In this document: positions 20,183-24,053 of the stretch, in pieces | How the letters are laid out: each line of letters begins with the position of its first letter | Position numbering within the stretch: the first letter of the stretch is position 1 | Assembly (NCBI GenBank): GCA_017471365.1 | Contig: JAFUUC010000095.1 | Span: 1 to 34,459, forward strand | Length of the DNA: 34,459 nt | From: a bacterium | GTDB lineage: Bacteria > Cyanobacteriota > Vampirovibrionia > Gastranaerophilales > Gastranaerophilaceae | Reading direction: 5' to 3' | Program-made: the position numbers and the translations under genes | The notes under the pieces: model-generated | Databases searched by the model: none | What the model was told of the DNA's origin: nothing | What the model saw: only the letters and a program-made list of their open reading frames with translations

Positions 20183-21904
20183 TTTTAATAATTCATCTGC
20201 CAATTCATTTTCTACACGTCCATTGAGAGTTTTGCTAACTTTTTGAAGTTTTTGTGCAATAATTTCCATTTGAGGTGTCCAAACGAAGTTATCATTTACG
20301 TATTTTTCAGCTTTTGCAAAATCTCCGTCAATCTGTATTCTTACAATTTCTTCGAGCATTTGCCTTGCCGCAGGAATAACTTTGTCAATATTTACATGAA
20401 TTTTACCGTCTTTAGTAATTTCATATGCTCCGCGTTCATACATGTATTTGTTTTGCATAACGGTACGAACTCTGTGAGCTTGTGACAGTGTAGGTTTTGA
20501 TTTTAAGAAATTATCCGCAACACAAGTTACAATAATTTGAAGCCGCTGTTCAGGCGTGTACATTCCAAGTTCTGTGAGCAAGTCTACAAATGCTAAAGAT
20601 GCCATGTCGGCTTTGTTTTCTTCAATAATATTGCGATATTTGCCAAGTTTTTCACTACCCTCTTTCGGACCAAGCGAGTGAGCGTTTTCATGCCCAATTG
20701 TAAACCAGTGATCTGCCTCATCAAGATAATATTTGTGTTGATCTTTATCTAAAATAGCATCAAGACGTTCTTTTAGTTTTTCGATGTCACTTATAAAACG
20801 AATTTGCCTGTGATAAACATTCCTTCTGCCACCGCCAATAGTTAAAGAAAGTTTGTCCGAGTTTGGAAGATTTTCAGCAAGAGTAATTCCACCGCGATAA
20901 GCTCCTACATCTCCTCCTGCATAAACCATATCAACATCAACCATTGTCTGAAGTGCATCATCATCTGTCGAAATTGTCTGCTTGTACTCGTCGCTAAACG
21001 GCATGTTTTGTGCAAGCGTAGGAAGATATTTCTTTATTTTCATAAGTGCTTCGGTACCTTCTTTGTTAACAATTCCAACTCTCGCACCAAGAAAATCTTT
21101 TGGAATAGGGGAAATATTGTTCTCTTTTAAAAGTTTAGAAAGTTCTTCGTTCTCAACAATTGTACCGGTCATCTCGTCTTCATAATTTTCACGAGTAATT
21201 GTAAACTCTAAAGGTGTGTCCTGTAATTCTGCCCATTTTTTGTCTGCGTAAGCATCGAGCATAGGATCAGCTTTGCGAAGAGCTTTTGCCTGAAGAATCA
21301 AATATACATTGAAATCTTCATTTGTCGAAACTCTGCTGGCATCTTCAAGTTCGTCAGCTATTTTTGCGAAATCTTCACTAAAATATTCAACATAATCGAT
21401 TCCGGCAAGATCCTCTGCTGCACGTACAACTATTGAACGCTGGGTTAGAATATTTCGTACTTCTTCAGTTTTGCCGTCTTTAATCATACGTATCAAAACT
21501 GCATGAAATTCTTCTTTAGAAAGATCTTCAGGATAAACCCCTTTGCCTAATTTTTCATCAATCCCCTTTGCGAGTCTGATAGGATTGGACATAGTGTCTA
21601 TAGCATTTATGCCTTTTTGTGCATCAAATAAAATTTTTGTTAGTTTTGCCTGCTCACTACCCTTTGAAATCTCTGCATCAAGAAATTCTTTGAACGGTAG
21701 ATTATGTTTGCAATCTATTTGCATGTTGATTTTTTCAAGTATTGAAGCTGCTTTGACAAGATGTTTGAGAGCTTGTTTGTCACCTTCCGCAAGAGCTAAA
21801 TATTCAGCAGAATCCGGTTTTAAAAATTTCTTGGTTACAAGATAATCTTTGTGTGTGCGTTTTTTCAATTCATCAATCGGCAGGTTAAATTCGTAAATTT
21901 GCAT
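20180..21904 (-). CDS. M49-like (dipeptidyl peptidase III-related) zinc metallopeptidase
   Basis: The 574-residue cytoplasmic protein has no signal peptide or transmembrane helix. It carries HENAHSLGP (H405, E406, H409), followed 19 residues later by IIEENKADM, whose glutamate would be the third zinc ligand. The pair HExxH...EExKAD matches the shorter bacterial relatives of M49, where the H-E-x-x-H-x-L-G-P and E-E-x-K-A-D motifs are conserved; classical DPP III has HExxGH instead. The N-terminal ~350 residues are helical with no motif I know. A likely role is peptide breakdown in the cytoplasm. AAGGAGAG precedes the ATG, and an extended -10 (TGATATAAT) lies at 21934-21926. The fold assignment is good; the substrate is unknown. 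Confidence 0.78.
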   Translation of the reverse strand: MQIYEFNLPIDELKKRTHKDYLVTKKFLKPDSAEYLALAEGDKQALKHLVKAASILEKINMQIDCKHNLPFKEFLDAEISKGSEQAKLTKILFDAQKGINAIDTMSNPIRLAKGIDEKLGKGVYPEDLSKEEFHAVLIRMIKDGKTEEVRNILTQRSIVVRAAEDLAGIDYVEYFSEDFAKIADELEDASRVSTNEDFNVYLILQAKALRKADPMLDAYADKKWAELQDTPLEFTITRENYEDEMTGTIVENEELSKLLKENNISPIPKDFLGARVGIVNKEGTEALMKIKKYLPTLAQNMPFSDEYKQTISTDDDALQTMVDVDMVYAGGDVGAYRGGITLAENLPNSDKLSLTIGGGRRNVYHRQIRFISDIEKLKERLDAILDKDQHKYYLDEADHWFTIGHENAHSLGPKEGSEKLGKYRNIIEENKADMASLAFVDLLTELGMYTPEQRLQIIVTCVADNFLKSKPTLSQAHRVRTVMQNKYMYERGAYEITKDGKIHVNIDKVIPAARQMLEEIVRIQIDGDFAKAEKYVNDNFVWTPQMEIIAQKLQKVSKTLNGRVENELADELLK

Positions 21905-21925
21905 ATTCTCTCCTTCTCTGCCTTT

Positions 21926-21934
21926 ATTATATCA
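21926..21934 (-). promoter_or_regulatory. Extended -10 promoter of the M49-like gene
   Basis: On the minus strand TGATATAAT is a TGn-type extended -10 with a perfect TATAAT. It begins at the stop codon of the 70-residue gene and lies about 21 nt before the peptidase ATG, with AAGGAG in between. The peptidase can therefore be expressed independently of the small gene. Confidence 0.6.
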
Positions 21935-22144
21935 CAACAAATTTCTCATATCGCTCCAACAATCATCGACAAATTCGATATTGTTATTATGAATTTTTAG
22001 AATTTGGTTGATTAAAATTTTGTTTTTAGTGTTTTTTTCATTCTGATTAAAAGTTAGAGCTATCTCTAACCACAGCTGTTCTACGTTTAACCGCTCAATA
22101 ATGTCATTGAGTTTACTTACTATTTCGAGTTGTTTTTTGTTCAT
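21932..22144 (-). CDS. Small protein of unknown function (70 residues)
   Basis: I place the start at ATG 22144, which has AGGAA 5 nt upstream, giving 70 residues; the frame stays open further upstream to 22240, but that part is AT-rich intergenic sequence. The product is helical and charged, beginning MNKKQLEIVSKLNDIIERLN and ending in a tryptophan- and aspartate-containing tail (FVDDCWSDMRNLL). No family is recognised. It is divergent from a small helix-turn-helix gene, and the two share an intergenic region with palindromes, so a regulator-partner pair is possible. Coding status is supported by the ribosome-binding site and composition, not by homology. Confidence 0.6.
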   Translation of the reverse strand: MNKKQLEIVSKLNDIIERLNVEQLWLEIALTFNQNEKNTKNKILINQILKIHNNNIEFVDDCWSDMRNLL

Positions 22145-22154
22145 CTTATTCCTA

Positions 22155-22233
22155 CTATTATTAGAATATTCTATTAATAATAGAAAAGAGTAATATATTT
22201 GTAGAATAATATCAATAAAATAGAATATTCCTA
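22155..22233. promoter_or_regulatory. Divergent operator/promoter region with repeated TAGAATATTC palindromes
   Basis: TAGAATATTCTA (22162-22173) is a perfect palindrome, nested between CTATTATTA (22155-22163) and TAATAATAG (22175-22183). A near copy, TAGAATATTCCTA (22221-22233), reaches the ATG of the plus-strand gene. Two related boxes between divergent small genes, one a DNA-binding protein, fit autoregulation. The second box also contains TAGAAT, a -10 hexamer 6 nt before the ATG. Confidence 0.5.
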
Positions 22234-22436
22234 TGGGCATTAGAGAAGATATAAAAGTTATGCTAGCACGTAGGGCAATGACTATGACGAAAGTTGCTCA
22301 AATAATGACTAGCCGCGGAATGAAAATGTCCATTAAAAATCTATCAAATAAATTAGTCAACAGGTCTGTCCGCTTTGAAGAAGTTCGCGAAATCGCAGAT
22401 ATTCTCGGATACAAAATTGAATTTGTAGAAAAATAG
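22233..22436 (+). CDS. Small helix-turn-helix DNA-binding protein (67 residues)
   Basis: The 67-residue protein reads as one compact Cro/CI-like domain. Helix 1 is REDIKVMLARRAMTM, then TKVAQIMTSRGMKMS forms the turn, with recognition helix IKNLSNKLVNRSV. It ends GYKIEFVEK, a tail I associate with single-domain regulators common in gut Firmicutes and their phages. No other domain is present. The start is fixed by a -10-like TAGAAT 6 nt upstream and the lack of other ATGs. It probably represses its own promoter and the divergent 70-residue gene through the intergenic palindromes (inference). Confidence 0.75.
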   Translation: MGIREDIKVMLARRAMTMTKVAQIMTSRGMKMSIKNLSNKLVNRSVRFEEVREIADILGYKIEFVEK

Positions 22437-22457
22437 TACGTAAATATATCCTAACAC

Positions 22458-22486
22458 TTGACAAAAGTTAAAACATCGTAAATAAT
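22458..22486 (+). promoter_or_regulatory. Strong promoter for a plus-strand small RNA
   Basis: Perfect -35 TTGACA (22458-22463), a 17-nt spacer and AATAAT (22481-22486, 5/6) lie 21 bp after the helix-turn-helix gene stop. The expected start is near 22493. No protein-coding frame with a ribosome-binding site follows on this strand. Confidence 0.65.
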
Positions 22487-22492
22487 ATATGT

Positions 22493-22602
22493 AGGGAACC
22501 GGCTAGAGTTTTGTAAGCTTACCCTAACCGGTTGTTCACATCCCTAAATAACGATAGAAATAATTTCTAAAAAAAGCCCTAGCAGTGCGAGGGCTTTTTT
22601 AA
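22493..22602 (+). ncRNA. Candidate structured small RNA, antisense to a small hydrophobic-peptide gene
   Basis: The stretch between a near-consensus promoter and an intrinsic terminator is about 110 nt and folds well by eye. TAGGG/CCCTA (22492-22496 with 22542-22546) encloses a hairpin with AACCGG/CCGGTT ends (22497-22533), whose loop contains the self-complementary GTAAGCTTAC. A small TAGAAA/TTTCTA hairpin and the terminator follow. No plus-strand ORF is present. The RNA is complementary to most of the 23-codon ORF on the minus strand and to the region after it, which is the geometry of a type I antitoxin RNA. Function is inferred from layout only. Confidence 0.5.
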
Positions 22603-22615
22603 TTACCTCTTTCAT
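22544..22615 (-). CDS. Candidate 23-residue hydrophobic peptide (possible type I toxin)
   Basis: A perfect AGGAGG (22628-22623) stands 7 nt before ATG 22615 (or 4 nt before ATG 22618). The peptide is MKEVIKKALALLGLFLEIIS followed by IVI: a short charged N-terminus and one membrane-spanning hydrophobic helix, as in Fst/Ldr-like toxins. Upstream on the same strand are TTGACA (22740-22735), a 17-nt spacer and GAGAAT, giving a leader of about 90 nt. In that leader CCTCC (22673-22669) can pair with the AGGAGG. The coding sequence contains a terminator-like hairpin (22600-22570), so the alternative is that this is merely a bidirectional terminator that happens to be open. No homology is claimed. 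Confidence 0.5.
   Translation of the reverse strand: MKEVIKKALALLGLFLEIISIVI
22570..22600. terminator. Bidirectional intrinsic terminator of the small RNA, inside the small ORF
   Basis: AAAAAAGCCCT and AGGGCTTTTTT form an 11-bp stem around a 9-nt loop (AGCAGTGCG on the plus strand). A run of six T closes the plus strand and seven T the minus strand. On the plus strand it ends the small RNA. On the minus strand it lies within codons 6-16 of the hydrophobic-peptide ORF, so translation could influence whether it forms. Confidence 0.75.
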
Positions 22616-22740
22616 CATTGAGCCTCCTTTCTGCCCCTATTGTCACATTCCAAGGGTGTGAAGCAGTTGGAGGTTCGGGGCTGCTACCCTACACCGAATT
22701 TCGGCATAAGTATTCTCTTATAGTTCATAAGTTTTGTCAA
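22616..22740 (-). promoter_or_regulatory. Promoter and structured leader of the small-peptide ORF
   Basis: TTGACA (22740-22735) and GAGAAT (22717-22712) are spaced by 17 nt. The leader can form AGCAG/CTGCT with a 14-nt loop holding CCCC and CCTCC, and then TCACA/TGTGA with a 9-nt loop. The segment GGGGCAGAAAGGAGG just before the ATG is complementary to that first loop. Loop pairing would bury the ribosome-binding site, so the primary transcript may be poorly translated. Confidence 0.45.
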
Positions 22741-22774
22741 GAAATATCGACGGTGTATAAGACAGCAAATTATA

Positions 22775-23245
22775 CTATTTGTGATATGTTTCATTTTTTA
22801 TGATTTTGAATGCTCGGTAGATTTGTTCCACAAGTAAAAGTCTTGCAAATTCGTGTAAAAAAGTCATTTTGGACATACTCATTTTTAAATTCGCTCTATC
22901 TGAAACATTTTTGCCAATTCCATAAGATGAACCTATTACAAATACGAGTTCTTGAGTTCCGGAATTAGTCAGTTCTTCGATTTTCTGTGCAAATTCTTCA
23001 CTGGAAAATTCCTTCCCTTTTATTTCCATCGTTATAACATAATCTGTTGGTTTAATATTTGCCAGAATTTTTAATCCTTCAGCTAATAAAGTTTTATCTT
23101 TAAGACTAATATCTTTAATTTCTATAGGTGGAATTTCAACAATCGATACAGGAGAATAGGGAGTAAGTCTTTTCAAAAACTCATCGATGCCGCTTTTGAG
23201 GAATTTTTCTTTAATTTTTCCAAGTGCAATAATTTTAATTTTCAT
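22775..23245 (-). CDS. rlmH: RlmH, 23S rRNA pseudouridine-1915 N3-methyltransferase
   Basis: From ATG 23245 the 156-residue protein has the size of RlmH, a SPOUT methyltransferase acting on assembled ribosomes. The SAM-knot motif FVIGSSYGIGKNV is present (family form F-x-I-G-G-x-x-G). The C-terminal signature KMSMSKMTFLHEFARLLLVEQIYRAFKI ends in YHK, as in E. coli. A GTG at 23254 in the same frame is rejected as start because homologues begin at MKI. The gene overlaps the end of mscS by 11 bp and is co-transcribed with it. No clear terminator follows, so read-through into the small-peptide locus is possible. Confidence 0.95.
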   Translation of the reverse strand: MKIKIIALGKIKEKFLKSGIDEFLKRLTPYSPVSIVEIPPIEIKDISLKDKTLLAEGLKILANIKPTDYVITMEIKGKEFSSEEFAQKIEELTNSGTQELVFVIGSSYGIGKNVSDRANLKMSMSKMTFLHEFARLLLVEQIYRAFKIIKNETYHK

Positions 23246-24053
23246 TTTTAGCACTTTCTATATAGACAGAGCGAGAAGGGAATGCAAAATCAATTTCAGC
23301 TTCACGGAAAGCCTTGATCACAAGTTCCAAAAATTCTCCTCTAACGGTTAAAAATTTAAAATATGAACCGGATTTTATGTAACCCATAAATCTTATATTA
23401 ATTGAACTTTCACCCATATCATGAACTGCAATGGTAAAGTCATTGTGTATATCTTTATGTTCAGTTCCGATACGTTTTAAAATTTCATGGGCTTGCTTAA
23501 TTTTTTCATTGCTTGTCGAGTATGTAACACCAAAGCTTACACGCAAAAGTCGTTTTTTAGCCTTTGAAACATTAGTTATAACAGCATTTGCTGCAACATT
23601 ATTAGGTACGGTTATAAGAAAATTATCCAGATCTCTTATTTTTGTCGATCTGATATTTATATCTTCAACGTAGCCTTCTATGTTGTTTACTTTCACATAG
23701 TCTCCAATTTTATAAACTCTATCGGATAAAATAGAAATACTACCAAATACATTAGCAATAGTTTCTTTTGCTGCCATGCCGACAGCCAAACCACCTATTC
23801 CAAAGCCGGCGATTATTGAAGAAACAGAATAGCCTTGACTTTGTAATATACCGGTCACTGCGATGAAAACTAATACAACTTTTAAAAGTTTCATCAGTAT
23901 TGGTAAAAATCTTAAAAGTGGAGAATTTGATTCCTGACTACGAATTTTATTTGTTATTTTTTTGTCTACAATGTCAATTAATTTGAAGCAGACTGCAAGT
24001 ATTACAACGTTTATACCGAGGGCAATCAAGCCTTTTTGAATGTTTGTAAGCAT
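23235..24053 (-). CDS. mscS: Small-conductance mechanosensitive channel (MscS family)
   Basis: The 272-residue protein has an N-terminal helix, two further transmembrane segments, and the pore helix SSIIAGFGIGGLAVGMAAKETIANVFG with the Gly/Ala packing pattern of MscS TM3. The beta domain follows (ISILSDRVYKIGDYVKV, then GYVEDINIRSTKIRDLDN), then the alpha/beta C-terminal cage. It is a minimal MscS, close to E. coli MscS in length, and releases solutes on osmotic downshift through the inner membrane. AAGGGAAA precedes the ATG. It is the first gene of an operon with rlmH and is divergent from the lytic transglycosylase gene. Confidence 0.93.
   Translation of the reverse strand: MLTNIQKGLIALGINVVILAVCFKLIDIVDKKITNKIRSQESNSPLLRFLPILMKLLKVVLVFIAVTGILQSQGYSVSSIIAGFGIGGLAVGMAAKETIANVFGSISILSDRVYKIGDYVKVNNIEGYVEDINIRSTKIRDLDNFLITVPNNVAANAVITNVSKAKKRLLRVSFGVTYSTSNEKIKQAHEILKRIGTEHKDIHNDFTIAVHDMGESSINIRFMGYIKSGSYFKFLTVRGEFLELVIKAFREAEIDFAFPSRSVYIESAKNEN

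Follow-up and report, generated by a model that had tools for sequence, protein, structure and literature searches.

Is a short stretch with two facing promoters, a very short ORF and a terminator hairpin inside that ORF a chromosomal type I toxin-antitoxin locus, or an ordinary terminator that serves two convergent genes from both directions and has one frame open by accident? The question arises from a locus in a 34,459-nt stretch of DNA (the window), contig C99 of a 1.8-Mb draft genome assigned by NCBI to Candidatus Gastranaerophilaceae, Candidatus Melainabacteria (Cyanobacteriota/Melainabacteria group). A spirochaete host, to which SpoIID, MscS and a BB0259-like lytic transglycosylase had seemed to point, is rejected because the nearest relatives of the locus come from Gastranaerophilales. 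A first-pass annotation had favored the toxin-antitoxin reading, and its coordinates were correct (Table 1). The facing TTGACA promoters that it placed at 22458 (+) and 22740 (-) are of the sigma-70 type and near-consensus (rescored at 11/12 and 10/12) and rank among the top three of 11 sites in 21900-23300, the third of which (+ strand, 22535) also reaches 10/12. The perfect AGGAGG on the minus transcript was found again at 22628-22623, and the plus transcript, described as free of ORFs and ending at a hairpin inside the peptide ORF, contains no ATG between ~22493 and 22601 and is predicted to end after ~108 nt at a hairpin followed by a T run. The ORF itself, reported as hydrophobic and 23 codons long, is present and begins with two ATGs; the reported length counts from the second, and from the first it is 24 codons (22618-22544). 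No Rfam family matches the window.

Table 1. Predicted features of the locus (window coordinates)
Feature	Position	Strand	Details or basis
Promoter of the peptide mRNA (sense)	22712..22740	-	TTGACA 22740-22735, 17-nt spacer, GAGAAT 22717-22712; 10/12
Predicted sense start	near 22705	-	
Conserved leader 5' element AGGGTAGC (consensus AGGGTAAGC)	22683..22690	-	75-locus alignment
Anti-SD ACCTCC, partner of the SD	22669..22674	-	predicted pairing and permutation
Leader-loop direct repeat, copy 1 (ATGTGACAA)	22640..22648	-	predicted antisense target
Shine-Dalgarno (SD) AGGAGG	22623..22628	-	
Peptide ORF MMKEVIKKALALLGLFLEIISIVI plus stop, candidate toxin	22544..22618	-	homology, alignment, frame conservation
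Hairpin (22574-22596) and T tract to 22600	22574..22600		antisense terminator; peptide codons ~5-14 on -
Direct repeat, copy 2 (TCACAT; ATGTGA on -)	22536..22541	+	antisense segment complementary to leader loop
Antisense RNA 5' stem-loop ACCGG...CCGGT	22498..22532	+	folding versus shuffles
Predicted antisense RNA, ~108 nt, candidate antitoxin	22493..22601	+	promoter and terminator
Antisense promoter	22458..22486	+	TTGACA at 22458, 17-nt spacer, AATAAT; 11/12

Sequence comparison confirms that the locus lies far beyond chance, because the same genome carries a second copy at 81% identity and many other genomes carry relatives. In DNA searches, the similarity to this paralogue (C33:6959-7195) extends over ~236 nt (query 19-254); it begins at the antisense -35 and ends where the leader starts, with the leader 5' element AGGGTAGC as its sense-side border. 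More copies were retrieved from other genera. The single peptide as a query found matches in 35 of 191 family genomes, and a profile built from 24 peptides found them in 138 of 383 (27 of 41 genera, up to five copies per genome) at E<=0.05. Because some matches at this permissive threshold are due to chance, the strict figure is preferred: at E<=0.001, 53 genomes of a phylum-wide sample of 386 were positive, all from the same family. As no relative was found outside Gastranaerophilaceae in this sample, the family appears restricted to Gastranaerophilaceae as far as sampled. Viral, phage and plasmid collections gave no match, a search in which a 24-aa query has limited power, and no association with mobile elements was detected in them. 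Neither Pfam nor NCBIfam holds a model for the peptide, the weak matches to DUF4116 and TIGR04081 being unconvincing. Two weak peptide matches (L049 and L055) proved unrelated on inspection.

From 95 extracted matches we retained 75 non-redundant loci with an SD and an ORF of 22-26 aa. Since this selection presupposes both the SD and the length, their presence is no evidence, and what informs is their uniformity: the ORF measures exactly 24 aa in 61 of the 75 loci, and the distance from SD to ATG is 4-8 nt in nearly all of them. Among the codon positions, conservation is strongest at the second (entropy 0.55 versus 1.12 and 1.11 for the other positions). The in-frame pN/pS is 0.61 overall and 0.53 outside the hairpin, compared to 0.80 and 1.35 in the shifted frames, and the value of 0.94 inside the hairpin is attributable to the stem, which holds synonymous sites. 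On this comparative evidence, selection is acting on the reading frame and not on the stem alone. The encoded peptides are amphipathic (moment 0.42 versus 0.21 for shuffled composition), have a net charge of about +2, and are charged at the N-terminus and hydrophobic toward the C-terminus; neither Trp nor Pro occurs in any of the 75. The locus hence contains one hallmark of type I systems, an ORF for a small hydrophobic or amphipathic peptide that is preceded by a ribosome-binding site. The peptide is probably membrane-active and presumably toxic, as a membrane-active toxin fits its cationic and amphipathic character.

The hairpin inside the ORF, which the first-pass annotation had left as a puzzle, turns out to be a trait of the family. 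When the ORFs are aligned without gaps, standard pairs make up 96.4% of the paired cells, compared to 33-58% with a slid partner, and several pairs show compensatory exchanges, such as codon5p3:codon12p2 (A-U 49, U-A 23), codon6p1:codon12p1 (G-C 57, U-A 13, A-U 4) and codon6p3:codon11p2 (C-G 44, U-A 26). Because these pairs change on both sides, hairpin and peptide are dual-coded over codons 5-14, with the stem forcing coupled residues. A terminator hairpin for the antisense RNA was detected in 74 of the 75 loci, and the 9 nt past the stem contain on average 6.1 T on the antisense strand versus 3.9 on the sense strand, suggesting that the hairpin serves primarily to terminate the antisense RNA. 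An intrinsic terminator further downstream on the sense side is predicted in only 12 of the 75 loci.

A bidirectional terminator with an accidentally open frame would account for a hairpin that makes a good terminator in the plus direction and for the seven T that the window copy carries in the minus direction as well. The sense T run is not kept in the family, however, with at least six T in 8 nt on that side in only 16% of copies, and the reading frame itself is under selection. Moreover, frame, length, SD, SD partner, residue pattern and antisense promoter are maintained across 75 loci with varied neighbors, which leaves this explanation practically no chance. The first-pass annotation would have abandoned its own reading had relatives kept the stem and lost the frame or the AGGAGG; instead, its proposed search for the peptide plus leader in related genomes returned the paralogue and many relatives in which frame and SD pairing are kept, and stem, frame and SD are conserved together across the 75 loci, with few decayed copies.

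A further expectation for type I systems is a translationally inert mRNA with a sequestered SD, and this is what the folding of the leaders predicts. The mean pairing probability of the SD is 0.97 compared to 0.64 with shuffled leaders (1.0 in the window copy), and it exceeds 0.8 in 97% of loci versus 24% of shuffled leaders. In these folds the SD pairs with a CCUCC near position -50. The duplex between an SD and the anti-SD of its own locus is more stable than permuted combinations (-16.8 versus -14.3 kcal/mol; 0/5000 permutations), and where the SD reads GGGGG (L051, L068 and L145), the partner is C-rich. Gating of the ribosome-binding site, as put forward in the first-pass annotation, is thereby borne out as a prediction, with the amendment that the CCTCC is not merely exposed in a loop facing the SD but is predicted to form a stem with it. 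A GCCCC/GGGGC pairing in the leader is also possible, either as an alternative or as a pseudoknot.

Behind the ORF, an antisense promoter scoring at least 10/12 is found in 70 of the 75 loci (93%) versus 4.7% of shuffles, with its -10 element usually 56-61 or 44-49 nt from the stop codon. The predicted antisense RNA is mostly 104-108 nt long, and its 5' domain folds as AUAGGG, a stem-loop, ~7 unpaired nucleotides and CCCUAU (mean z -3.0; 72% of loci below -2), the window copy being weak at -0.7. Conserved promoter and terminator together predict a gene for an antisense RNA that can pair with the toxin mRNA, another hallmark of type I loci. A sense promoter of at least 10/12 is present in 39% of the 75 relatives versus 3% of shuffles, and transcription from upstream may serve the ~60% of copies in which no clear one is seen. 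RNAalifold returned no structure when all leaders, or all antisense 5' parts, were aligned together with MAFFT, as the sub-families diverge too much; structure was instead tested locus by locus, by folding with shuffles and by permutation tests.

The leader loop (at about -30) and a segment ~6 nt past the stop codon carry a common short sequence that varies from locus to locus (e.g., GTTAAGA, CTGTAAA, ACGAAGAAA, GCGACAA, TGATAG and TACGTCAA). As the second copy lies within the antisense transcript, the antisense RNA carries a complement of the leader loop. The match averages 6.75 nt within a locus and 4.64 nt between loci, with none of 5000 permutations reaching the observed sum, and it extends over at least 7 nt in 57% of own pairs versus 7.7% of pairs between loci. 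The permutation leaves the relatedness between loci in place, which works against this result, since kinship would raise the cross-locus matches. Both repeats are predicted to be unpaired (0.77 in the leader and 0.79 in the antisense RNA, versus 0.52 and 0.35 elsewhere). In genomes with multiple copies, the own match is likewise longer than the cross match (6.7 versus 4.9). The window genome is an exception, as each of its two leaders has a 9-nt match to the antisense RNA of the other copy and a 6-nt match to that of its own, which could reflect recombination within the ORF or real cross-regulation. The sites of this cross-match are 22640-22648 and 22532-22541 in the window copy (L001), which match L016 both ways. 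In the window, the antisense loop is also complementary to the leader AGGGTA (GCTTACCCTA), which resembles a second repeat but is by eye not kept in other loci.

The dispersed copies, the inverted AUAGGG/CCCUAU ends and the confinement of paralogue similarity to the unit between antisense -35 and leader start are also what a MITE-like, non-autonomous mobile element would display, or a structured RNA pair with an incidental ORF. A MITE would not be expected to show selection at the peptide level, a conserved SD or coevolving repeats in antisense RNA and leader. The inverted ends, moreover, pair with each other in the stem that closes the antisense RNA, and no target duplications were noticed beside them in an unsystematic look. 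We therefore regard this explanation as very unlikely.

So far, a convergent arrangement of this kind is familiar mainly from par/Fst, a plasmid-addiction system of Gram-positive bacteria. In par(pAD1) of Enterococcus faecalis, the two convergent RNAs have a terminator in common, the SD is masked by a 5' stem-loop, and the direct repeats DRa and DRb make the RNAs complementary over another region as well, through which translation is suppressed (PMC7472228). The predicted features of the present locus correspond to each of these elements of par(pAD1)/Fst and its Firmicutes relatives (PMC7472228): convergent promoters, a shared terminator region, an SD-sequestering 5' stem-loop, a small peptide, and an oppositely read direct repeat that makes antisense RNA and leader complementary in trans and that is poorly conserved between loci, i.e., locus-specific. 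The differences are equally clear. The peptide is unrelated, with a charged N-terminus and a hydrophobic C-terminus, and in the 75 peptides neither the Trp that Fst/Ldr peptides have between the transmembrane helix and the charged C-terminus nor, given the lack of Pro, the PxxxG form of the P/D/S/TxxxG motif (the only form considered) is found. The present terminator hairpin is embedded in codons ~5-14 of the ORF, the antisense RNA has ~105 nt compared to ~40 nt for RNA II, and the host belongs to Gastranaerophilaceae on the Melainabacteria/Cyanobacteriota side instead of Firmicutes. The comparison suggests that the par(pAD1) logic is built here around an unrelated peptide which, if true, would imply either great age or repeated invention of this logic.

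AapA/IsoA of Helicobacter pylori resembles the family in other respects, namely in multiple chromosomal copies with module-specific antisense RNAs (PMC6733600), a peptide of the 24-30 aa class, an antisense RNA that covers the ORF and anti-SD sequences in the leader (PMC6733600). No similarity between the peptides was detected, as judged by curated family models alone, and a long-distance 5'-3' lock is a feature of AapA. Within the same broad phylum group, msoT1/msoA1 of Microcystis aeruginosa was presented in 2025 as the first type I candidate in Cyanobacteria; its putative toxins are 39-81 aa long and come from one genome, and MsoT1 has two predicted transmembrane helices (PMC12390103). Apart from this candidate, reports of type I systems are confined to Proteobacteria, Firmicutes and Tenericutes (PMC12390103), and the open-access literature yielded none for Gastranaerophilales or Melainabacteria. 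The best reading is that of a previously unnamed family, the first type I toxin-antitoxin family in the clade.

Comparative analysis thus shows that the frame is maintained together with its SD and the sequestration of that SD, that the antisense RNA has a conserved promoter and terminator, and that leader and antisense RNA coevolve in their complementarity; we infer transcription and translation in the cell, the direction and means of silencing, and toxicity. The locus is likely to be a type I toxin-antitoxin module that resides on the chromosome and belongs to a new family, and on the comparative evidence regulation of the peptide by the antisense RNA is nearly certain. Of the type I pair that the first-pass annotation had proposed, the antisense RNA, the gated ribosome-binding site, the frame, promoter, terminator and complementarity are now backed by 75 loci, and toxicity is the part that is still deduced. 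By analogy to par(pAD1) (PMC7472228), the following mechanism can be proposed. The minus strand would yield an mRNA for a 24-aa cationic, amphipathic, probably membrane-active peptide, and this mRNA would be born locked, since the upstream CCUCC would hold the SD in a hairpin and keep basal translation low. The strong promoter behind the ORF would direct synthesis of the ~108-nt plus-strand antisense RNA, whose sequence complements the 3' UTR as well as codons ~5-24 and which would end at the terminator hairpin within the reading frame. An unpaired stretch of its 5' half would in addition complement, in a locus-specific way, the leader loop that directly precedes the SD. By binding both this loop and the ORF hairpin, the antisense RNA might keep the SD closed, expose the duplex to nucleases, or both; when its level falls, the mRNA would open and the peptide would be made.

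A more elaborate variant assigns the ORF hairpin a role in the sense mRNA as well. If no ribosome followed, the hairpin would form and stop or mark the sense mRNA before the stop codon, and a translating ribosome, or boxA-type antitermination in those copies with a boxA-like motif (see below), would permit read-through. The hairpin would couple residues K..L with N/D/Y..H and A/V..G with S/A..E, and the two paralogues of the window genome would be cross-wired, each leader fitting the antisense RNA of the other better than its own. We consider this self-licensing, cross-wired version unlikely, though it merits mention.

Alternatively, the same RNA logic could control a tiny membrane or regulatory peptide that is no toxin, since the peptide is so far a putative toxin and no mobile-element association was found. 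Some copies are also stable in place: genera g10 and g13 have the arrangement MurJ-[element]-Sua5 in common, with near-identical peptides, and these copies must therefore be old. Yet the copies are otherwise scattered beside unrelated genes (the neighbors of the 75 are diverse housekeeping genes), the copy number varies and decayed copies exist. The window site is lineage-specific: in the 28 congeners with a readable flank after rlmH, other sequence occupies the position, so that the window copy represents a gain in its lineage. Such traits, together with the double lock that is predicted for expression, are commonly seen in type I toxin-antitoxin loci and would be unusual for a housekeeping peptide, making a non-toxin rather improbable. 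As for decay, a good antisense promoter is found in four of seven copies with a disrupted SD, frame or stop, versus 70 of the 75 intact ones, the numbers being small; in L084, L118 and L140, the ORF or SD is disrupted and the antisense promoter is lost as well. This joint loss and the coevolving complementarity are indirect signs that the antisense RNA may neutralize the putative toxin.

As a toxin-antitoxin family, the loci would offer no fewer than 75 coevolved pairs of toxin leader and antisense RNA, a natural library in which recognition specificity is directly testable. They represent a real gene family missed by current annotation libraries in a gut lineage that is common and mostly uncultured.

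The small HTH gene beside the locus, which the first-pass annotation had linked to the system, does not appear to be a component, as a related HTH gene adjoins only ~4 of the 75 copies. The HTH-like protein in the window (22233-22436, +; 67 aa) resembles HTH_26 and DUF6471 weakly, below the curated cut-offs, and a relative of it is encoded near three other copies of the element.

Directly upstream of ~20 of the 75 copies lies the boxA-like motif [A/T]TTGA(A/T/C)AA(T/C)T(T/A/G)AATA, in L058, L061, L101, L066, L148 and others just 5' of AGGG. It also precedes tRNA genes (L153, L154, L157, L161, L162, L168 and L170), though it was seen in only 2 of 24 sampled tRNAs, and it occurs in the leader of the ribosomal protein L3 (rplC) operon (L159, L164, L166 and L169). 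An antitermination or processing signal is possible; no 16S match was obtained in the four genomes in which it was sought for comparison with the rrn boxA. The same rplC operon leaders contain the conserved blocks AGCATTATGCA, GGTAAAGT and GTAGCGCTCGCAAG, which have no match in Rfam and possibly represent an unnamed ribosomal-protein leader. Finally, in L170, L172 and L176 (all from genome G105), a copy of the first bases (TGTCGACGTGAC) of a tRNA-Leu-like gene adjoins that gene, with the boxA-like motif before it and a different, hairpin-rich sequence after it, and may be a tRNA-derived decoy or element.
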